A DNA stretch of 64,000 nt from Diacronema lutheri (taxonomy: Eukaryota > Haptophyta > Pavlovophyceae > Pavlovales > Pavlovaceae): NCBI GenBank assembly GCA_019448385.1, contig JAGTXO010000023.1, positions 1-64,000 on the forward strand, written 5' to 3'. Positions 1 to 50,500 of the stretch are shown here, piece by piece. Under the pieces are notes generated by a model. It did no database searches, was not told the origin of the DNA, and saw only the letters and a program-made list of their open reading frames with translations. A program made the position numbers and the translations under genes. Positions within the stretch are counted from its first letter, which is position 1, and every line of letters begins with the position of its first letter.

Positions 1-365
1 CCCTTACCCTATACCCTTACCCTTACCCTTACCCTTACCCTTACCCTTACCCTTACCCTTACCCTTACCCTTACCCTTACCCTTACCCTTACCCTTACCC
101 TTACCCTTACCCTTACCCTTACCCTTACCCTTACCCTTACCCTTACCCTTACCCTTACCCTTACCCTTACCCTTACCCTTACCCTTACCCTTACCCTTAC
201 CCTTACCCTTACCCTTACCCTTACCCTAACCCTTACCCTAACCCTTACCCTTACCCTTACCCTTACCCTTACCCTTACCCTTACCCTTACCCTTACCCTT
301 ACCCTTACCCTTACCCTTACCCTTACCCTTACCCTTACCCTTACCCTTACCCTTACCCTTACCCT
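1..365. repeat. Terminal telomeric repeat array, C-strand CCCTTA (G-strand TAAGGG)
   Basis: Nearly uninterrupted CCCTTA hexamers run from base 1 to about 365, roughly 60 copies. The C-rich strand read 5' to 3' from base 1 is the orientation expected at a left chromosome end. Read toward the end, the G-strand unit is TAAGGG, not the common TTAGGG (whose complement would be CCCTAA). Interruptions are few: a CCCTATA variant at about 7-13 and two CCCTAA units near 223-240. Confidence 0.95.
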
Positions 366-455
366 AACCTGAACCCTAACCTGAACCCTAACCTGAACCC
401 TAACCTGACCCTGACCCTAACCCTGACCCTAACCCTGACCCTAAGCTAGGTTAGG
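361..455. repeat. Degenerate telomere-proximal repeats
   Basis: The perfect array passes into four CCCTAACCTGAA 12-mers and then mixed CCCTGA and CCCTAA units, ending near 455 at a short GCTAGGTTAGGG segment in the opposite orientation. A decay from homogeneous repeats to variants is the usual structure at the inner edge of a telomere. Confidence 0.85.
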
Positions 456-1203
456 GCAGCCCTTTTTGAAATGTGCCGTAGGGATGGCGGGCATGGCAGG
501 GAGAGCGCGTCGGCGGCGCGCTGCGGTGAGGCGGATGGGCGCTCTTGCTCGGCTGAGGCGTGCGTGTGGCTGCAAACGGGCCGTGCGTGGTCAGTCCTGT
601 GCCCTCATCACCCGCCGCCGCCCGCCAAACGCCCGCACGCCACGCGCGAGGCCGCGCGTGCGGCGCGTCCTACACCGTGCGAGGCTGCGCCGCGCCGGCA
701 GGTGCTCGTCCGGCAGATTGGCTGGTCCGAATGTCGCGAGACTTTGGCGCGTGGCTCCATGCGCCATGCCCATCGAATCGGCTCGGCAGGTCCGCGCACT
801 TTCTGCCTCGATCACCCGCACGCGCGTGGTCGGCGCCGCGCGCGCCTCGTTTGGCCGTCCGACGCGCTCGCGCGACCGTCGCCCAAGACCCACCGGGCCA
901 AAGTCGTTCAAAATACAAGACAGGACTGGTGTCCCCAAGGTCTACTTTATCGATCGGCCTGGCCAGGTTTGCCGCGCCTGTAAGCGTCGTTAGTATAATC
1001 CAGCAGCGTTCTCCAGTCACTAAAATCATCGCGACGATCTTCGCTGCTCGCGTCCAGTGACGGTCGCGACTGCCCGTCACAGCGTGCGACAGTGACAGTG
1101 GCGACGACGACGATTTCGTCACTTGCAGCGCGACGATCGCGACGAAGTCGCGACGAAAGCGACGATGCGCGCTCACCTCATCGGGCGGGCCGCAACGCCG
1201 GCA

Positions 1204-3068: not shown

Positions 3069-4433
3069 ATGGAGGACAAGTCGGTGGGCGCTGACGGCGG
3101 CTCGTCGTCGCGTATGGTCGTGCACGAACGCTCGCCTCTGCTCTCGCCGCACGCTGCGGCGCATGCCGTGACTCACGCGTCTCCGGGTTTCCCGACACCC
3201 TTTTTGCTGCTGCCCGCCGAAGTGCTCGCGCGTGTCGTCGCGCTCGTCGGCGACGAGTACGCCGTGTGCTGGCGCCTGTCGTGCCGCGCGATTCGCGGCA
3301 CGGTCGGCGCGCCGACGCGGACACCGCGCTCGGCAATGCTGCGCTCGCGCGCGCTCGCCGCGTGGGCGTGGGCGCAGCCCGGCTTCCGCTCGGCCGCGTT
3401 TCCCGCGCGCGAGCAGGCGGCCCTGTCCGCGCTCGCGGCGGGCGTTGGCAGCGTGGGTGCGCTCGCGTGGCTGCGCGAGCGCGGCTGCGGATGGCACGTG
3501 ACGACGTGCTCATCTGCAGCTCGGCGCGGCCACCTCGCGGTGCTCCAGTGGGCACGCGAGCACGGCTGCGAGTGGCACAGCGGGACGTGCTCCGCTGCTG
3601 CCCGCGGTGGCCACCTGGAGGTGCTCCAGTGGGCTCGCGCGCACGGCTGCGAGTGGGATCGCTTCACGTGCGCCTTTGCAGCCCTTGGCGGCCACCTGGA
3701 CGTGCTCCGGTGGGCGCGCGAGCACGGCTGCGAGTGGGACAGCGACACGTGCTCCTCTGCAGCCCGCGGTGGCCACCTGGAGGTGCTCCAGTGGGCTCGC
3801 GCGCACGGCTGCGAGTGGGACTGCAACACGTGCTGCTTTGCAGCTGGGCGTGGCCATCTCGCGGTGCTGCAGTGGGCGCGCGAGCACGGCTGCGAGTGGG
3901 ACAGCGACACGTGTTCCGTTGCGGCTGGGGCTGGCCACCTCGAGGTGCTCCAGTGGGCTCGCGCGCACGGCTGCGAGTGGGATCGCTTCACGTGCGCCTT
4001 TGCAGCCCTTGGCGGCCACCTGGACGTGCTCCGGTGGGCGCGCGAGCACGGCTGCGAGTGGGACAGCGACACGTGCTGCTTTGCAGCTGGGCGTGGCCAT
4101 CTCGCGGTGCTCCAGTGGGCGCGCGAGCACGGCTGTGAGTGGGACAGCAGCACGTGCTCCAGAGCAGCTGGAAGCGGCCACCTGAATCTTCTCATATGGG
4201 CGCGCGAGCACGGCTGCGAGTGGTCGCTGCACGAGTGCTTGCGCGAGGCCATGGATTGCAAGCACGCGCACGTGGCAGCATGGCTGCGTGCGCGCCCCGA
4301 GTACGGCGCTGAGGTGCATGGCACCGATCATGATGGCGACGATGATGGCGATGTCTCGGAGAGCGAAGATGACCCATGGTGGGTGACGCGCTCTACGCTC
4401 CACTGGTGGACGGTGGACACAGCGTCGACCTGA
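3069..4433 (+). CDS. F-box-like protein with 27-residue ankyrin-like repeats
   Basis: Single-exon ORF of 454 aa from an ATG just after a T-rich stretch. Residues about 47-77 (LLPAEVLARVV through CRAIRG) resemble an F-box. From about residue 136 there are nine tandem 27-residue units of the form GCEWDxxTCxxAAxxGHLxV followed by LQWAREH, then a degenerate tenth unit and an acidic tail. Such short ankyrin-type units are abundant in algal and large DNA virus proteomes, usually as protein-binding scaffolds; with an F-box they would recruit substrates to an SCF ubiquitin ligase, which is inference. Units 3 and 7 are nearly identical at DNA level over about 120 bases, so the array has recently been duplicated or homogenised. 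It is the first credible gene inward from the telomere. Confidence 0.8.
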   Translation: MEDKSVGADGGSSSRMVVHERSPLLSPHAAAHAVTHASPGFPTPFLLLPAEVLARVVALVGDEYAVCWRLSCRAIRGTVGAPTRTPRSAMLRSRALAAWAWAQPGFRSAAFPAREQAALSALAAGVGSVGALAWLRERGCGWHVTTCSSAARRGHLAVLQWAREHGCEWHSGTCSAAARGGHLEVLQWARAHGCEWDRFTCAFAALGGHLDVLRWAREHGCEWDSDTCSSAARGGHLEVLQWARAHGCEWDCNTCCFAAGRGHLAVLQWAREHGCEWDSDTCSVAAGAGHLEVLQWARAHGCEWDRFTCAFAALGGHLDVLRWAREHGCEWDSDTCCFAAGRGHLAVLQWAREHGCEWDSSTCSRAAGSGHLNLLIWAREHGCEWSLHECLREAMDCKHAHVAAWLRARPEYGAEVHGTDHDGDDDGDVSESEDDPWWVTRSTLHWWTVDTAST

Positions 4434-38311: not shown

Positions 38312-38574
38312 GTGCGGCGCACGCAGCGCGCCGCATCGGCGCGCTGCGCGCGCTCGCATGCGGCCCTCAGACGCCGAGGCCGTCAGCTCGTGTCTCGGGG
38401 GGCGGACACTGAAAGTGGGTCGCAACGAACTTCCCTCTTTGCTGACCTTAATTAAGGATGCAAAATGTCAATGAGAATATACTAACGACGCTTACAGGCG
38501 GGTGTCGAGGTTCCTTAAGGCATTCTATTTTGGACACCGGATCCTTTGACGTAGCCCCGCCGAACGTAACGAAG
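38312..38574. promoter_or_regulatory. Candidate promoter / 5'-leader with TACTAAC-type branch site
   Basis: The last 150 bases are AT-rich for this genome, including CTTAATTAAGG at about 38448. Bases 38480-38497 read TACTAACGACGCTTACAG, an ideal branch-point sequence followed by a 3' splice site about 12 bases downstream. This suggests a 5'-UTR intron of the PKHD1-like gene; no convincing donor was located. A similar AATTAAGG word occurs in the divergent promoter at about 26420. Confidence 0.4.
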
Positions 38575-41500
38575 ATGAGGCAGGGCGCCGTCGGGCGTCT
38601 CGTCGCGGCGCTCGCCGCGCTGGCGTGCGCGGCGCGCGCGCAGACAATCACGCGCGTCTTTCCTACTCGCGGGTCGACATACGGTGGCACGTACGTCGTG
38701 ATTGACGGCGCGGGCTTTGCGATGCCGACGGACGGCAACCCGTGGGACGCGCAGCAGATCTACCTTGGGCCCGTGCCGTGCGACCCGATGCCGCACTATA
38801 CGCACGCGACGCGGATCGTGTGCATCACGCGTGGGTACGAGCCCTTCATTGACACGCCCACGCTGCCGCTCTCCGTCGTCAAGTTCTCCGGACTCGGCGA
38901 GGTGCACACGGACACGGTGGCGGCCGCGTTCGAGTACACGGACGCCAACACGCCGTCGCTCGAGTGGCTCTCCAAGTGGGGCGGCTCGGCGGGCGAGCTG
39001 CTCACCGTGTTCGGCGAGATGCGCTCGGTCGTCAAGTCTGCCGCGCAGGTGCGCGTGCGCATCGGCGCCGTGCAGTGCCTGAGCGACGAGGAGGCGCGGC
39101 CGATCGTCAAGCCGAGCTACCACGGCCGCACGCTCTCGTGCCAGCTGCCGTCCGAATCGTCGCAGCTGCTGCCAGGCCGGTTCAACGTGTCGGTGAACGT
39201 GGTTGCGCTCGATCAGCATGCGGGCGAGTGCTCCAACCTCGCCTGCTTCGTCGCCGACTTTGACTCGGCGTCCAGCTCGCTCCGGCGGGACGGGTACGGC
39301 AGCGGCCCGCTCGTCGTGCCCGCGCCGCTCGCCGTCGCGCCGTCCGCGCGCGGCGACGAGTGGGCGGGGTCGGTGCATCTGCCGACGGGCGAGCCATACC
39401 ACTTTGAGGTGTACCCACGCGTCGACTTGCTCTCGCCCTCGTCTGGCGGCTCGTACGGCGGCCAGCGCCTCACGATCCGTGGCGCGTCCTTCTCGGCCGC
39501 GCGCGAGGAGAACGAGGTCTTCGTCGGCGGGGCGCCGTGCGCCGTCATCTCCGCCGACGAGGCAGAGCTCGTGTGCGCGCTGAGCGACGATCTGGCGGGC
39601 GCGAGCGCGGCTCCGCCCGACGAGCGGCGCACGCCGCGCGGCCTCGCCTTCCGCACGTACGACGCGGCGGAGTACGCCGCGGCGGGCGACGGCGCGGCCG
39701 TGCTGCAGCGCGGCGTGCTGAGCGACCGCGTCGACTTTGTGCGCGACCGCGGCCCGACCGACTACAACCCGGAGAGCCGGAGTGCCTTGGTGCGCGTAGC
39801 CGAGGGCTACCTCGTCCCGCCGCTCACCGCCAACTACACCGTGTACACGGCGGGTGACGATGGCGTCTCGGTCTTCCTCTCGCACGACGACTCGGCCGCG
39901 CGCCTCGTGCGCATCACGCACTTCGACAGCTGGTCCAACGTCGACCACCAGCGCACCAACCCGGCGGCCTTCTTCGCGCACGCGGCGAGCACCGGCCCCG
40001 TCGAGCAGCTGCGCGGGCCGACGGCGCGCGTCTCGCACCCGATCGAGCTGCGCGCGGGCGCGCGCTACGCCTTCCGCATCGAGCACACGATGGCCTCGGG
40101 CGACGAGTGGACGCGCATCGGCGCGCGCGTGAGCGGCCTCGGCGCGGCGCAGCTCGCCGACGGCTCGGCGCTCGACGAGGGCGCGGCGGCGTCCGCGGCG
40201 CGCGCCGCGCCCGCGCGCGCGCTCGCGCTGCTCACGCTTGCGCCGCTGACCACGCTGCGGCGCGAGACGCACGAGATACGGCTGCAGGCGGGCGTGGGCG
40301 GCGATCTGACGATCCGGCTCGACGCGCTCACCGACGCGACGGGCGTGCCGTCGGTCGCCGACCTGGCGATCTCGGAGGCGACGAGCGCATCGGAGCTCAC
40401 CTCGTTCCTCCTCGCCGCGAGCACCGCTGTCTTCGACACGCGCGGCCGGCTGACAACGCAGCGCGTGCTCACGCGCTGCCGCACCGTGCGCTCGACCAAG
40501 GAGATATCGGACGGGGTGGTCATCTTCACCGTCGAGATGGGCTGCCCGTACACGCACGAGAACGACCGCTTCATCGCGCTCTCGATCGCGCCGACGCGGC
40601 AGCAGCGCAACAAGGCGTTCTCCTCCCTCCAGCCGCACGCGCAGCTCGTGCGCCACGCGGCGGCGCCCGTGAGCGGCTCGTTCCGCGTCGGCGTGTCGGG
40701 CGCTTGGTCGGTGGACATCCCGGTGCGCACGGCGTGGAGCAGCGAAGGGTACAGCCGTTGGGAGAACCTCGCGCGTGCGATCACCGTTGGCCCGTTCCGA
40801 GCCGACCGGCTCGACGACGGTGGCGTGCGTGGCGCGCCCAAGGACGTGCAGCTCGAGGTGTGGCGAGCGCACGGCACGTGGACGAGCTTTGAGGCCTTCT
40901 CGATCGCCGTGCGCGTGCGCAGCCCAGTCTCGTTCACGCGCACCGCGGCGGAGGCCACCGACGCCAACGCCGATGCGGACCCCGATGCGAGCGCCGGCCC
41001 TTTTTCGGACGAGCAATGGCTGCCCGAGCTGCCGGAGCTGCAGCTCGACACGTCCAAGCTGGTCGGCGAGAACATCACGCTGCAGATGCGCGAGCTGGAT
41101 TGGGCCGACCCGGACAGCGCGCAGCTCGAGCGCCTCCCGTCCGATTGGTTCCGCCTGCCGGACCCGCCGGACTCGGCCGAGCGGCTCGTCGTCGTGCGCA
41201 CGCTCGGCGTGCACTCGGCGGCGGGCGGCGCGGGCGCAGCCTCGTTCACCGTCAACGCATCGCTCACGCCGACGATCAACGCGTTCTGGCCCACCGTCGC
41301 AGAGGCGGGCACGACGCTCACGCTGAACGTCTCGGCAGCCGTGCCGATGCTCGCCGACGAGCTCAACACCCTCGCCGTCCGGCTCGGCGACGGCGAGAAC
41401 GGCACGGCGTGCGACAACCTCGTCGACGCGACGCCGCCGTCCGCGCCGGCCGGCGTGCTCGCCACGCTCAACTGCACGCTGCGCGACGGGCCGGCGGGCA

Positions 41501-44500
41501 CGCACGCGCTCGTCCTCGTTTCGAGCGTGCGCGGCTCGTCGGGCGTGTTCGGCGCGCCGCGCATCGAGGTGCGTGTGCGCGTGACGGACGTTGCGCCCGC
41601 CGTCGGCTCGATCGGCGGCCTCACGCCCGTCGCGCTGAGCGGCACTGGGCTCCGAGGGCTCGGCTGCGCGCAGGTGCTGCTCGGCGGGCGGCCATGCGCT
41701 GAACTGGGTGCGCTCGTGGACGGCGGCATCCCGCGGCGCGCCGTCGACGAGCTGCGCCGCGCGAACAGCAGCGCCGCGCTGCTCTGCCTGACGCCCCCGC
41801 TGCCAAACGCGACGGGCGCTGCGGACGAGGGGGAGACCGTCGTCGTCACCGTCGCGCAGCCACTCTCCACCGCCGCGTCGGTGCGCGGCTTCTTCACCTA
41901 CTCGGCTAACGCGACGCCCGCCGTGCTCTCGCTGCAGCCGGCCGTCCTCTCCGCCGCCGTCTCGTCGCAGATCGAGCTGCTCGGCTCGCGGCTTGGCGGG
42001 GGCGGCGGCGCGGGCACGGGCACGGCCGATGAGGAGGACGGCGTGCATGTCTCGTTCGGCGCGCGCGCGTGCGAGGTGCGCGCGCGCACGGACGTGTCCA
42101 TCTCGTGCTTCTTGCCGCGCAGCGTCGGCCCGCCCACCGACGACTCGGACGGCCCAGCGCGCGTGTGGCGCTCGTCCGTCGGCGCGTCCGTCGTGACCGA
42201 CGCGAGCGCCGCGCTGCGCTCGGAGCTGCAGATCGACGCCGTCTCGCCCGCGTCGGGCTCGCTGGGTGGCGGCACGGTCCTCACCCTCGTCGGCAGCGGC
42301 TTTGCGCCCGACGGCGTCGCTGCCGCAGCGGAGCAGATTGTGACGGTGCAGTTCCTTGACGATGGCGCCGAGCTGAGCTGCGCGGTGCTCGAGGGGACGG
42401 CGAACCGCGTCCTGTGCGAGCTGCAGCCCGCGGCGGACGCGGTGTACAACGACATTCTCGCCGGCGAGATTGGCGGCTTCCTGCAGGCGAAGCGCCGCCG
42501 CCGGCTGCTCGACGGCGAGCTCGACGGCGAGGTTGGCGCCGACGGCGCAGACACGACGGCCGCTTCGTCGCGGCTGCCGTGGGGTCGGCTGAGCGGCCGC
42601 CGCCTCGACGCTGGCGGACTCGAGGCGCCGCACGCCGAGCACTATGCAAGCGCGCAGCGTCACGTGACGTCGCGCCGCGCGCACATCGGCGCCGGGCCGG
42701 CGGCCGCGCACGCGCGCCCCGCCCACCTCTCCCATTCGCCGCACGCTCGGCTCGCCGCTGCATTTGGCGCGGCGGGTGCAGTGCGCGGGCCGGCGGCGGC
42801 GCACGAGCACCCGCTCGCGTCGACGCTGCGCGCTCTCAAGCCGTCCGCCGCGCGGCATGCCGCATTTGACACGCATCACCTGCTGCCGCCCGAGCACCGC
42901 CGGCTGCAGCAGCGGCTGCACGCCAGCGCGCTCGGCGCTGAGCAGGAGGAGCGCAGCCGCCGCGCGCTCGCCGAGCGCGCGGCCGGCGCAGCGGTCGAGG
43001 CGGGTGCCGAGGCGGGTGCCGAGCCAGATCTCGCGCGCTTTGGCGCCTTCGCGCGCCGCGCGGCGGCGCACGCGACGCGCCGGCTGCTTTTTGGCGCGAA
43101 CGCGCTCGCAACGACTCCGCCGCCCAACCCGCCGCCGTCCAGCTTGCAGCCGCCCAGCCCGCTGCCGCCCAGCCCGCCGCCGCCCAGCCCGCCGCCGCCC
43201 AGCCCGCCGCCACCCACCCCGCCGCCCAGCCCGCCGCGGCCGCCCAGCCCGCCGCCGCCCAGCCCGCCGCCGCCCAGCCCGCCGCCGCCCAGCCCGCCGC
43301 CACCCACCCCGCCGCGGCCGCCCAGCCCGCCGCCGCCCAGCCCGCCGCCGCCCAGCCCGCCGCCGCCCAGCCCGCCGCCACCCACCCCGCCGCCGCCCAG
43401 CCCGCCGCCACCCACCCCGCCGCCGCCGCCCAGCCCGCCGCGGCCGCCCAGCCCGCCGCCCAGCCCGCCGCCGTCAGCGCCGCCGCCGCCGCCGCCGCCG
43501 CTGCCGCCGCCGCCCGCTGCGCGCGTCGGCCGCGTCCGGCTTGTGCGCAACAACGTGCCCGCGCGCTGCGCCGATGCGGACGGCCGCTGCGCCTTCTCGC
43601 TCGACTTTGCGCGCACGCCGCTCGCGCACTCGGTCGCGCCGCTCGCCGGCTGGCACGTGCCGCCGCCGCCGTCCGACGGCGGCGGCGGCGGCGGTGCCAC
43701 GGGCGCCGGCGAGAACGCGACCGCCGCCGAGAACGCGACCGTCGTCATGGTCACGCTGCGCGGGTACGTGGGCGCCAACGGCAGCGACGCGCTGAGCGCG
43801 CGCGTCTTCTTCGGCGCAGTCGAGTGCGCGGTCGGGGACGCGCAGCCGGCGCTCGACGACAGCGGGCGCATCGACGGCGTGACGCTGCGCGTGCCGCTCT
43901 GCGCCTTCGCGGCGGGCAGCGTTCCCGTATCGGTGCTCGTGCCAACCGTCGGCTGGGCGCTTGGAGCGGCTGGGCGTGGCGCGGTCGCGCGCTCGCTGCC
44001 GGGCGAGCCTGCTGCCGAACCCTTCTCCTCCTTCGCCGTGGAGCAGCTGCTGCGCATCGACTCGCTCTCGCCACCCAACGGCTCGTGGTACGGCGGCAGT
44101 CGCGTCACGCTGCGCGGCTCGGGCTTTGGCGGCGGTGTGGACGAGGGCGCGCCCGCCGGCAGCCGCGCGCGCAGCAGCGTGCTCGTCGCCGGCCTGCCGT
44201 GCGAGGTCGAGATGGAGACGCACGACACGCTCACGTGCTTCACATCGGCCGTGCCCGCGTACCGTCCGCTCTCCGAGGCGGGCAGCCTCTCACGCCGCGT
44301 GCTGTGCACGTTCGTCGGGTCGGGCGACAGCGCCTCCGCCGCCGCGTGCGCCGCCTCATGCGACGGGCACGCGGCGTGCAACACGGTCAACTACCGCGCA
44401 TTTCCGCGCGCGTGCGAGCGGCGCGTGTGCCCGGTGTCGTGCACGGCCGCATCGTGCTCGTTCGACAGCACGAGCTCCGCTGAGTACCGCGTCCTCACCA

Positions 44501-47500
44501 AACTGCCGCTCGCGCGCCTCACGGACGGCAGCGCGACCGCGTCGCTGCGCGTCGGCGCGGCGGCGGCCATGCTGGCGCGCGCCTTCGCCTACGGCGCGGC
44601 GGCGGACGCACCGCGCCTCGACGCGCTCGTACCGTCGGGCGGCGAGCCCGGTGGCGAGCTGCGCCTCGCGCTGAACGGCAGCGGCTGGGGCGCCGATCCC
44701 GGACAGGCCGGACTCGTCGTGTTCGGCTCGGCGCCGACGCCCGCACGCAACCTCGCGTGCGCGCTGCCGTCGGCCGGCGCCGGCGCGTGGACGGACAGCT
44801 CGCTCGTGTGCGCGCGCGCGGCGGACGAGACGCCGGCGGGCGGCTGGTCGGTGCGCGTGTGGAGCGCAAGCAGCAACGGCTACTCCAACCCGCTGCCCCT
44901 CGTCGTGCTGCCGCAGCCCCTCGAGCTGCGCGTCGCGAACGGCGCGGCCGCGAACGTGAGCGGCGCGGCGAGCGGCAGCGGCGTGGCGCAGCTGCTCGGT
45001 GGGCACGGCGGCGGCCTCGAGCTCACGCTGCTCGGCGCCGGCCTCGGCCTCGACGCCACGCAGACGCGCCTCACCGTCTGCGGGCTGCCGTGCGAGCTGC
45101 TCGCGTCCAACGGCTCCTCTGCCACGTGCATCTCGCCGCCAGTCACGACGCTCGAGCTCGTGGACGCGCTGCCCGAGCAGTTCCCGCCATCGGACCTTGC
45201 GCTCTCCGCGGCCAACTTTTCGACCAACCGACCGTCCGACACGACGGAAGTGCGCTTTGCAACCGAGGCCTTTGGCGGCACGATTGACGTGCCGCGCACG
45301 CTGCTCGCGGACGACGGCTCGTGGCGCAACGCCGACGCGGCGTGCTGGTACGCGATGACGCTGCCGGCCGAGCAGGCCGCGCTCGTGACCGCCGCAAAGT
45401 TCTACCCGGCCATCGACCCGGCGCGGCGCGAGCTCGCGCGCCAGACGGTGCTGCAGGTGCGCAACGTGACCGTCGGCGCCGGCTCCGAATTGGCCGACTT
45501 TGCGGACGCGGCCGCGTGGCGCACGGTCGGCGACGTCGCGCAGACGGCGGTGACGGGCGACTCGATCGCGCAGGGCTGGAGCGCCTTCACCGTCTCGCCG
45601 CCGCTGGTCGCGCAGGCCTTCCGCGTGCTGCTGCCGCGTAGCGCGTGCCGGCAGCGTGGCGAGCTCTTCCGCGCCGCTCGCTTCGACGGCGTCACCTTCC
45701 ACGCGGCGGACGAGGCGGAGTGCGCGGTCGCGCTCGAGGCGGTGCGCCACCCGCTCGCCGACACGGCCGCGTCACCGCTCGTCCTGCGCGCCTCGCTGCT
45801 GCACACGCTGCCGCACACGCCGACGCTCGTCTCGCTCGAGCCGCGTACGGGCAGCGCGCGCGGTGGCACGACGGTCACCATCGTTGGCACGGCGCTCGAC
45901 CCGCTCAATGCGGCGGGCGCGGCGCTGCCTGCCACCGAGGCGCTGCTCGCCGTGCGCGTGCAGCTCAACGGGTACGAGTGCGCCGTGCAGTCGGTGAACG
46001 GCAGCGCGATCGTGTGCGTGACCGGCGCGCGGCGCGACGCGCTGCTGCCACCGAGCACGCGCGTCACCGTCGGCGGGCGCGGGCGCGCCCTTCGCTCGGC
46101 CATGGATGACACGGCCTTTGAGTACATCGACCTGTGGTCGGACGAGCGCTCGTGGCTGCACTCGGAGAAGCCGGCCGACGGCGACTCGGTGATCGTGCCC
46201 CTCGGGCAGTCGATTTTGCTCGACGAGGATTCGCCGCGCCTTTTCCTCCTCCTCGTGCAGGGCAGGCTGCACTTTGCGCGCAAGGACGTGGCCCTCGATG
46301 CGACCTACATTTGGGTGGCGGGAGGCACGCTGCAGGTGGGCACCGAGACGGAGCCCTTCGTGCACCGGGCGACGATCACGCTGCACGGCGACCGGTGGAC
46401 TACCGTCGAGCTGCCCTTCATCGGCTCGAAGATGCTCGTGGTCACCAACTTGGGCGGACTCGACGGCGGCTGCCACGTGCACGCGCATGGCGACGCGCCG
46501 CCGCCCTCCGGACCCGGCGCCGCGCGCACCGCGGCCGACCCGTGCCCCGCGCGCTCGGTTGGCCGCCTCGAGCTGCAGGGCGCGCCTCGCCGGCCGTGGA
46601 CGCGCCTCGTGCGCACGGCGGCGCCGGGCGAGAGCGCGCTGCACCTCGCCGAGCCGGTGGACTGGCCGATCGGCGCCGAGATTCTCGTCACGCAGTCGGC
46701 GGCTGGCGAGCGCGAGGAGCTGCGCCGCGTGGCGGCCATCGAGGACGACGGGTTGACGCTGCGGATCGACGCGCCGCTCGCCAACGAGCACCTCGGCGTG
46801 TGGCACTGGCACGACGAGGGCGCGGCGCCGTCCGACCTGCGCGCGGCCGTCGCGCTGCTCGAGCGCAACGTGGTCGTGCAGGCGGGCGACGAGTCGATGC
46901 GCGCGGGCGGCGCCTTTCAATTCGGCGTGCACACGGGCGGCTTCCACGGCGGCGTCTTCCGCCTGCGCAATGTGCAGCTCACGCGCTCGGGGCAGGCGGG
47001 CAACTTTGGCCGCTACTCGTCGCACTGGCACCACTACACGATGGCCGGACGCAACATCGACATCATCAATGGAGCCTCGTATCTCAAGGACAACGTCTAC
47101 CGCGACACCTTCCAGCGGGCGGTCGTCGTGCACGGCACGGATTACGCGACGGTGACGGGCAACGTGGCGTACCGCGCCAAGGGGCACAACTTCTTCACCG
47201 AGGAGGGGCCCGAGCGGTACGCGCTCTTCGAGGGCAACCTCGCGGTCGCGGCCGTGCCGCACCCGATCCTGCTCGGCGACGACTCGACGCCCGCCGGCTT
47301 TTGGATCCCGGGCTTCACCGGCTGGCACCGGCACAACCTCGCCGTCGGCTGCGCCAACGGGTGGAAGCTCAACGTGCAGGCGGGCGCCGGCGCGCGCCAG
47401 TCAGGCATGGACTTCCACAACAACTCGGCGCACGCGTGCGGCTTTGGCTGGCGCCTCTTCCCGCCGCACCAGCCGCCGACGCCCAACGTCTTCTCCACGT

Positions 47501-50500
47501 TCGTCGCCTTCCGCTGCTCCACCTGCATGTTCTACTACTCGTCGGGCAACCTCAACCACCTCGACCACCGCTTCATCGAGTGCGGCCGCGCGATCCACCT
47601 CAACCACTACATGAACGGGCTGCACGCCGCGCCCTTCTTCACGGACCTCGTCCTCGTCGGCTCCATCGACCCGAGCGCGCGCAGCGCCAACGCCGGCTCG
47701 CCCGCGATCCACTCGCCCAAGGACGACGAGCACTGGCTCGTGTCGGGCATGCACGTGTCCAACTACCACGACAGCGCGGTCCTCTTCGGCTGCTTTCAGA
47801 CCGCATGCACGATGCGCTACGAGCGCACGGTGTGGGTCAACTCGACGCGCCGCACGACCTCGACCGGCCCACTCTCGGGCATCTTCCACGACCTCGACGG
47901 CACGCTCACCGGCTTCCCGAACGGCTGGGTGAGCGGCGACAAGGCCTTCAACCACTGGGAGGACGGCGTGTGCATCGCGGGCGACAGCCGCTTCGTGGAC
48001 GGCCTCGCGTGCGGGCTGGCCGACGGCTCGTTGCGGCTGCGCCGGCTGTTTGTGCACGACGCCGAACCGTGGCAGCTCGATGGCAAGGACTTGCTCGTCA
48101 CCACGCCCGCCGGCACCGACCGCGTCGCCTTCGACACGAAGACCTTTGGCTGGCACGTCTATGCAATCGCCAACCGCTCGTACGAGCTGGAGCCGGACGA
48201 TGCGAACAGTTGGCAAAGCATGGCGACCATGTACAGCCACTGGAACTACGTCTTTGAAACGCATGGCTGGAGCGCGGGGCTGCCCTCCTCCTCCATCGCG
48301 CCAGGCACGCTCGCGCAGCCCGTCGTCGAGCGCCTCACCATCGAGATCCCGTACTGCCACTTCCGCCACCACTTCGACTCGGACGTTGGCCCGCGCCTCG
48401 AGCGCGAGCCGTCTCAGGACGACGACGTCTTTGGCGCGCACGCGCTCCGGCTCAACCAGTCGGCGTGCGAGCTGTACGCCAACCTGAGCAACGCGTCGAC
48501 CGCCGAATGCTCCAACTGGACCAACCAATCGACGTATGCGCCGCCGCGCCGCCCGCCGCGCCGCCCGACGCGTCGCCTGCGTCCCGCGCCGCGCGCTCCG
48601 CCGTACCGCGCGCTCAGCCGCGCCGCGCCGCGCCGCTCGCAGGCTCGAGCTCAAGTTTGAGCTCGACCAGCAGCCCGAGCAGCCGCAGGTTGACGGGCGC
48701 GTCAAGACGGTCGTCTCGGAGAAGGGCGCGCCACGCTCGATGCGCGCAAAGCTGACGGCGCGTCTCTGCCCGGTTGAAGGCTGCCCCACGCCGCCGCGCA
48801 TGCCAGGGGTCTTCGGCGACTTTGTGCTCTGGTCTGATCCGTCCGTTTGGCAGTGCGCGCGGCTGACCGACGGTGCAACGATCCGCCAGTGCCGCCTGCG
48901 CCCGTCCGACCGGCGTGCGCGCCGCCTCGCCGAGGCGATCGGCGGCGCTGCCGGCCGCGCCGTGCACTCGGCCGCGCGGCTGCTCCACGCGCGCGGCACG
49001 CGCTCGCGCCGGCTGCTGCTCGCGATCCGGCGGACGGTGCAGCGGCGGCGGCTGCAGTTCAGCACCGTGCCGCTCGACATTGAGTACAGGCTGCCCGGCG
49101 AGGAGGACGACGTGGTGATCGGCCCCGACGAGAGCGTGCTGCTTGACGTGGCGACGCCGCGCCTCAACTGGCTCACTGTCGAGGGGCGGCTGCACGCGAG
49201 TCGCACCAGCCACTCGACGCTCACGGCGCGCTCGGTGCTCGTGTGGGGGCAGCTGCACCTCGGCACGCCCGCCGAGCCGATCCCGGCCAACGTGAGCGCG
49301 CAGCTCCGACTGTGGGGCGACGAGTCCGACCACACAGTCGTGATGGTGGAGGGCCTCTTCCTCGGCAACAAGGTCCTCGCCGTGCTCGGCGAGCTGCAGG
49401 CGGCGGGCACGCCGCTCGACGCGCCGCTCTGGACGCGCCTCGCCTCGACGGCGATGCCCGGCGCGACGACCATCGCCGTGCGAGGCGACGTGCGCGCGTG
49501 GCCCGTCGGCGGCCGGCTCGCGCTCGCTCCGACCGAGTACCCGGCCCCGCCCTCCACCACCGAGCTCGAGACGCTCGCGATCGCGGCGGTCGGCGAGTAC
49601 GACGCGGCGGCGGACTCGACGTCGGTCACGCTCGACCGCCCGCTGCTCCACCGCCACTTCGCCGACGATGTGCTCACCGACGCGGACGGCGCGCACTGGC
49701 CGCGCATCGCGCTCGCCGCGCCCGTCGGGCTGGTGGGCAACTTTTCAAATGTGGCGGTCCTGACGGACGAGGAGGACGCGCAGCACGGCGGCGCGATCGT
49801 GATCGGCGGCTCGCTGACGGGCACGTGGGTGGGCACGGCCAACGTGAGCGACATCGAGCTGTGGCGTCTTGGCAAGTTTGCCCTCCAGCAGCCCGCCGTG
49901 CGGTTTGACTACGTCGGCCAGAGCGCGGCGCTCGAGCGCCAGGCGGCGCTCGGCGCGGATGAGTCGGTGCTCGCGCGCGTCGCGTTCGGGCAGTCGCAGG
50001 CGGGTGCGGTCGAGATTAACGGTGGGCAGGCCATCTTGCTCGACGGCTGCGTCTTCCACGAGACCCTCCGCTCGGCCGTGTGGGTGGGCAAGGCGAGCGC
50101 ACACGACGTGGTGCGCATTGAGCGCAACGCCGCCTTCGGCACGCTGCGCCACCCGTCCGAGAGCAACGCGTGGATCCGCCAGTTCGCCGCCTTCTTGCTC
50201 GAGGTGCGCGTCGCCTCGCTCGTCGGCAACGTTGCCGCCGGCTCGGCCGACACGGGCTTCGTCTACCGGCCGCACCTCGCCGACGGCGCCTGCGCGGCCG
50301 GCGCCGACGGCTCGGCGCCGCTCGAGCGGCACGAGCTGAACGAGGCGGTGGGCTGCATGGTCGGGCTCTTCGTGCTGCGCGCATGCCCCGACGCCTCGCT
50401 CTGCGCGCGCTGCGCCGCCGTGCGCGGCTTCGTCGCGTGGAAGTCGTCGCATGTGGGCGTGCTGACGGTCGACCAGAACGCGCTCACCTTCCGACTCTCC

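Follow-up and report, generated by a model that had tools for sequence, protein, structure and literature searches.

In the Diacronema lutheri assembly analysed here, telomeric arrays at different contig ends are built from different repeats, and TAAGGG, the repeat at the start of the stretch shown above, is only one of several caps, the others being TTAGGG, TGAGGG, TCAGGG, TAGGGG (GTAGGG in the other register), TTCGGG and rarer ones. We regard the presence of several end-specific repeats in this assembly as close to certain, and we are much surer of it than of the mechanism. The telomere sequence of a genome is normally uniform because one RNA template writes it. Among the matches listed, there is no report of end-specific telomeric repeats (six or more terminal kinds) in an alga, nor any of the telomeres of D. 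lutheri, and the available excerpts of the D. lutheri genome paper contain no mention of telomeres (PMC8379373); the other published studies are likewise cited here from excerpts.

Terminal repeats at the contig ends

The assembly consists of 43,492,796 bases in 103 contigs, with 206 contig ends; the window, that is, the whole stretch of 64,000 bases that was analysed, comprises bases 1-64000 of contig C40. The genome of D. lutheri NIVA-4/92 was sequenced from sorted clonal cells using PacBio long reads (read N50 of 23 kb, commonest coverage approximately 315x), and the assembly was polished with Arrow, Pilon and FreeBayes, three rounds each, according to the excerpts of the source paper (PMC8379373).

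Tandem Repeats Finder identified a period-6 repeat with the consensus CCCTTA at positions 1-442 of the window (93% matches), and direct parsing delimited the terminal array proper (Table 1), in which the exceptions to CCCTTA are one CCCTATA (7-13) and two CCCTAA units (224-229 and 236-241). Both analyses confirm the TAAGGG array noticed in the sequence-only reading, which was also right that TAAGGG is no rotation of TTAGGG; the end that it assigned to the array, position 365, lies about four bases too far. Beyond position 460, CCCTTA is absent from the + strand of the window, and none occurs on its - strand. Genome-wide, CCCTTA repeated five times was found at 922 overlapping places (536 forward and 386 reverse), compared with 0 for the reversed-letter control, and all 28 CCCTTA array boundary matches lie within 2 kb of a contig end; the CCCTTA array is therefore far above chance and terminal. 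Most likely, the window array is a genuine chromosome end of D. lutheri, and we infer that contig ends in general correspond to chromosome ends. We interpret the 12-base dimer that follows the array on its proximal side as an indication of local tandem copying.

Table 1. Features at the start of the window
Feature	Positions	Strand	Basis
Terminal telomeric array, 57 CCCTTA units (G-strand TAAGGG)	1..361	-	Direct parse
Proximal higher-order repeat, CCCTAACCTGAA x3 + CCCTAACCTGA; 12-base dimer unit	362..408	-	
Proximal alternating CCCTGA/CCCTAA units (TCAGGG/TTAGGG)	409..444	-	
Copy of the shared subtelomeric element (564 bp in the C100 copy)	445..976	+	

Altogether, 164 of the 206 contig ends were surveyed, 24 of them over at least 1.7 kb and 140 over 300 bases. 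A script took 42 of these as telomeric, from which the poly-C end C18s was dropped to leave 41 counted ends; the script overlooked C25s, where CCCTTA lies beneath raw-read noise, and C24e, with three units only, was omitted. The outermost repeat is CCCTCA at 12 ends, CCCTTA at 12 (among them the degenerate C12e and the mixed C37e), CCCTAA at 8 (among them the mixed C53s), CCCCTA at 5 (among them C23e, mixed with CCCCTAA), CCCGAA at 2, and CCCTGA and CACCTAA at one each; the canonical repeat, CCCTAA (TTAGGG), is not outermost at 33 of the 41 ends. Arrays of the CCC type, with the C-rich strand running 5' to 3' inward, are present at 41 of the 164 ends, an orientation for which the filter selected, and none of the 164 ends shows the opposite orientation, judged by more than six AGGG in the outer 300 bases. 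Outside the 164 ends that were read, position-only searches placed a CCCGAA boundary approximately 0.2 kb from an end of C96 and CCCTCA boundaries approximately 1.9 kb from an end of C75. Both ends are telomeric in C9 (CCCCTA at each), C36 (CCCTCA and CCCTTA) and C47 (CCCTTA and CCCTAA), the latter two contigs having different repeats at their two ends.

The sequence-only reading had proposed that TTAGGG at other ends would point to a base-calling or consensus artefact. TTAGGG is indeed outermost at eight ends, but the conclusion of an artefact is unlikely to hold because, in a single assembly, the variants are specific to particular ends and are found in both contig orientations. Tandem arrays are hard to polish, all three polishing programs were run repeatedly and several contig tips are noisy, as would be expected if sequencing, assembly or polishing had generated the variants. 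However, one systematic error or one polisher would push the ends in one direction, and these differ; the substitutions are repeated up to 130 times in a row; and the tips that look unpolished agree with the adjoining array. PacBio errors, furthermore, are mostly indels. An artefact of this kind is judged very unlikely.

Block structure and order of the repeat variants

Parsing of the arrays yielded 2547 units, chiefly CCCTTA (903 units; TAAGGG on the G-strand), CCCTCA (542; TGAGGG), CCCCTA (351; TAGGGG, or GTAGGG in the other register), CCCTAA (293; TTAGGG), CCCGAA (167; TTCGGG) and CCCTGA (97; TCAGGG). By inspection, each of the five non-canonical main variants is one substitution away from TTAGGG. 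The longest pure runs comprise 130 and 90 CCCTTA units (C6 and C89, respectively), 79 CCCTCA (C48), 77 CCCCTA (C9) and 72 CCCGAA (C65). In the adjacency test, for which 37 of the 42 called ends had enough parsed units (the degenerate C12e was dropped from this and the order test), 2073 of the 2490 neighbouring units were identical, against 1660 expected from shuffling within ends and 522 from pooled composition. Two-unit alternation accounts for 96 of the 397 unit changes, whereas 200 shuffles of the run order gave 7.8 on average and never more than 19; for example, CCCCTCA alternates with CCCTAA approximately 23 times at C53, and CCCTTA with CCCTGA 7 times at C13. Dimers like these are not written by a hexamer template. 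Changes between adjacent hexamers involve a single substitution in 192 of 218 cases, a proportion that is partly forced by the closeness of the main variants to one another; at C65, for instance, the passage from CCCTTA to CCCGAA proceeds via CCCTCA and CCCGTA. Distal growth by copying predicts that the distal half of an array is purer than the proximal half, but the difference was not significant (Wilcoxon p = 0.14): among the 22 ends compared by half-arrays, the proximal half was more mixed at 13, the halves were equal at 4, and the reverse was seen at 5.

It is an even call, in our judgement, that the variant units were expanded locally by copying of telomeric DNA, and we favour this explanation because it predicts what the arrays show: blocks that are pure and specific to an end, dimers, stepwise variants and mixed orders. 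An ancestral TTAGGG array would acquire point-mutated units, and single units or pairs would then be expanded at their own end by copying of the local telomeric DNA, through t-loop or break-induced self-priming, rolling circles, unequal sister exchange or slippage. Each end would thereby come to consist almost entirely of its own variant, the GGG core being preserved, and telomerase may still add some repeats without dictating the sequence of most of the ends seen. In human cells, recombination-based extension has been described to amplify variants stochastically (PMC3919612; see also PMC9678338), and human telomerase extension increased variants with changes at positions 1 and 3 but not position-2 variants such as TAAGGG, TGAGGG and TCAGGG (PMC3919612). 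Three of the five main non-canonical variants of D. lutheri are position-2 changes; the other two, GTAGGG (position 1) and TTCGGG (position 3), are of the kinds that human telomerase extension raises and count against local copying.

The order of the variants was assessed with block pairs, that is, blocks of four or more units sharing an end. Four ends supplied the block pairs of CCCTCA and CCCTTA, three in one order and three in the other, with both orders present at C9e and C36e, and the orders of CCCTAA relative to CCCTCA and to CCCTGA are each divided 2 to 1. In all six block pairs that they form with CCCTTA, CCCCTA (3), CCCTAA (2, at C15 and C98) and CCCGAA (1) are the distal partners. 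The mixed orders of CCCTCA and CCCTTA exclude a single switch, whereas a partly ordered history remains compatible with the data.

These orders bear directly on the proposal of the sequence-only reading that a single recent change of the telomerase template had converted TTAGGG into TAAGGG, CCCTAA being the older sequence. The latter part may well be correct. Boundary matches more than 2 kb from a contig end make up 5 of 12 for CCCTAA, compared with 0 of 28 for CCCTTA, 3 of 33 for CCCTCA, 0 of 10 for CCCCTA and 0 of 4 for CCCGAA; four of the five deep CCCTAA matches lie 59-208 kb in and the CCCTCA ones at most 7.2 kb in, and CCCTAA alone of the five boundary patterns searched has internal matches tens of kilobases from an end. 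The telomeric motif given for Phaeocystis globosa, another haptophyte, in the available part of the report is also CCCTAA (PMC11347835). On these two grounds, TTAGGG is probably ancestral. The internal CCCTAA matches and the CCCTAA units at the base of the window array would fit a single template change, but the change itself has to be abandoned as extremely improbable: CCCTTA is outermost at 12 of the 41 ends and not at 29, other ends carrying CCCTAA, CCCTCA, CCCTGA, CCCCTA or CCCGAA; at C15 and C98, it is CCCTAA that occupies the distal position relative to CCCTTA; and CCCTCA blocks are found both distal and proximal to those of CCCTTA. One genome-wide template switch was accordingly rejected in view of the repeats at the other ends, the occurrence of both block orders and the presence of a shared subtelomeric element under different repeats (see below). 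Approximately 6.6 kb from the start of C33, there is an apparent former chromosome end (L035), a CCCTAA/CCCTGA/CCCTTA array followed by the subtelomeric element and oriented like the present CCCCTA end.

Alternatively, the telomeres might be ordinary ones, the arrays representing a proximal variant zone of the human type with the distal, telomerase-made TTAGGG tract missing from the assembly. TCAGGG and TGAGGG are common proximal variants in human telomeres, as far as the excerpts describe them (PMC3919612), CCCTAA is outermost at eight ends, lies distal to CCCTTA at two and is the Phaeocystis motif, and contigs may not reach the termini. This last point may also be held against local copying, as may the occurrence of proximal alternation and blocks where telomerase maintains the tip. 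However, the distal tract should have been read, given the read length and coverage of the assembly, and the 33 ends with another outermost repeat speak against its existence. At C9e, the terminal 1072 bases are nearly pure CCCCTA; at C51e, CCCGAA begins approximately 1.1 kb in and, wherever listed or read, continues to the tip, the last 300 bases being pure; the 300 bases read at C50s are pure CCCTCA, with a separate CCCTCA boundary match 1.7 kb in; and at C22e, C36e, C88e, C76s, C33s and C80e, the outermost stretch resembles uncorrected reads and is dominated by the variant of the adjoining array. We therefore consider a missing TTAGGG tract unlikely, although it is, together with multiple telomerase RNAs (see below), the main competitor of local copying.

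Subtelomeric sequences and telomerase-related genes

The sequence that adjoins the window array belongs to a subtelomeric element with copies near the ends of C9, C15, C20, C48, C65, C98, C100, C102 and others. For the copies at other ends, whether long or truncated, identity is 86-96% and mostly 93-95%, the values at C9 being 86-90%; the window copy diverges 36 bases before the inner end of the element. At the element-bearing ends, the outermost repeat is CCCTTA (C40, C25 and C88), CCCTAA (C44 and C100), CCCTCA (C11 and C55) or CCCCTA (C9), although the element is separated from the outermost block by other sequence or further arrays at C11 and C9. The presence of one element at ends with different outermost repeats indicates that the repeat has probably turned over since the copies separated.

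Many copies of the element share a nearly constant inner end, GACTACTAACCC, and are variably truncated on the telomere side, most being followed directly by telomeric repeats; stacked copies are found at C9, C20, C98 and C102. This structure is consistent with retroelements primed by telomeres or, alternatively, with broken ends that were healed by the addition of telomeres. A second dispersed repeat, at approximately 1004-1249 of the window, has at least 21 further copies that are 92-97% identical and contig-internal. Within the telomeric array at the start of C9 (L043), positions 482-924 hold an insert with long, near-identical palindromic repeats (TGTTGGGATAAAGTAGCAGACTATACGAGTC...) on both sides, and a related palindrome adjoins the array of C53. 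Seven contig ends, C3e, C8e, C13e, C32e, C33e, C43e and C57e (L165, L169, L173, L183, L184, L191 and L201, respectively), break off at almost the same point, to within a few bases, of a common sequence, ATAGATGGTCAAGCCAAATCCGATC..., which has no Rfam match at gathering thresholds; Rfam returned nothing at these thresholds for any of 10 selected loci. Further into the window, an open reading frame at 3069-4433 contains 81-bp repeats, which we take to be ankyrin-type HLEVLQWAREHGCEWD units, and next to the C86 telomere there is coding sequence of a similar kind, so that the two perhaps represent a subtelomeric gene family. A very long open reading frame of 3400 aa (table 11) with proline-rich repeats occupies 38458-48660.

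On C5, we detected a match to the telomerase RNA-binding domain PF12009 (E = 6.2e-26, over the cut-off) and a weak match to RVT_1 (E = 1.1e-4, below the family cut-off), in the right order and each in a 1453 aa open frame; we take these to represent one TERT-like frame. A POT1-like match is present on C73 (E = 3.4e-9). Judging from these predicted genes, ordinary telomerase maintenance is available to the alga, which counts against local copying. By our own estimate, short template-like words are too common in this 73% GC genome to serve as a guide to the telomerase RNA.

The TERT-like frame would also be compatible with several telomerase RNAs, alleles or successive templates that differ in template sequence, one of them writing a long pure block at an end in an infrequent burst of high processivity. 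The 130-unit CCCTTA block could be one such extension, and duplication of the telomerase RNA gives two repeats in Mimulus lewisii, according to the excerpts of that study (PMC12169523). The order of the blocks lends some weight to the same possibility: CCCCTA, CCCGAA and CCCTAA are always distal to CCCTTA, which is itself the distal partner in none of its pairs with CCCCTA (0 of 3), CCCTAA (0 of 2) or CCCGAA (0 of 1). This consistency stands against local copying and could also result from a series of template changes. Nevertheless, the repeats of M. lewisii are described as interspersed (PMC12169523), unlike the pure blocks seen here, at least six templates would be needed, and neither the dimers nor the mixed one-substitution steps at block borders are predicted by processive bursts. 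Overall, multiple templates appear a rather improbable source of the blocks.

Relation to known telomere systems

Like the proximal variant repeats of human telomeres (TCAGGG, TGAGGG and TTGGGG), the D. lutheri variants are single-substitution derivatives of TTAGGG that keep the GGG core, and the human patterns are known to tell telomeric alleles apart (PMC3919612, PMC9678338). In the human telomeres described in those excerpts, however, TTAGGG is dominant and the variants are mainly proximal, whereas another repeat is outermost at most D. lutheri ends in the assembly. The ALT telomeres of cancer cells show stochastic, lineage-specific amplification of variants, including TTCGGG and TGAGGG, also at distal positions (PMC3919612, PMC9678338). 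Amplified variant repeats are present in D. lutheri, where pure blocks reach 130 units and dimers exceed all 200 shuffles. The differences are that D. lutheri is a free-living alga with a TERT-like frame and that, within one clonal culture, the dominant variant differs from end to end.

As in M. lewisii, which has two telomerase RNA paralogs, more than one telomeric repeat occurs in one genome, but the two repeats of M. lewisii are interspersed (PMC12169523), whereas D. lutheri has at least six outermost repeats in end-specific blocks; interspersion along each telomere was not found, identical neighbours being in excess of the shuffled expectation. In Giardia, TAAGGG is a recorded telomerase product alongside TAGGG and TAAGG (PMC10999387, PMC7046594), and the TAAGGG hexamer alone is therefore not new. 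From what the excerpts describe, TAAGGG is a variant beside the characteristic TAGGG in Giardia, unlike in D. lutheri, where some ends have pure TAAGGG arrays while others have it only proximally or not at all. In common with telomerase-type systems, D. lutheri has a short G-rich terminal tandem repeat and encodes a TERT-like frame.

Tentatively, and with less confidence than we attach to local copying as such, we suggest that the telomere sequence of D. lutheri may be heritable per end, with constitutive, ALT-like, self-templated replenishment in a telomerase-encoding alga and a satellite-like evolution in which only the GGG core is selected. More generally, chromosome ends that bear different pure repeats within one genome would show that many spellings are tolerated in capping, and such a genome would offer a natural, non-cancer system for template-independent telomere maintenance in which each end is a marked lineage for following copying events. 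A telomere motif taken from one contig end can mislead.
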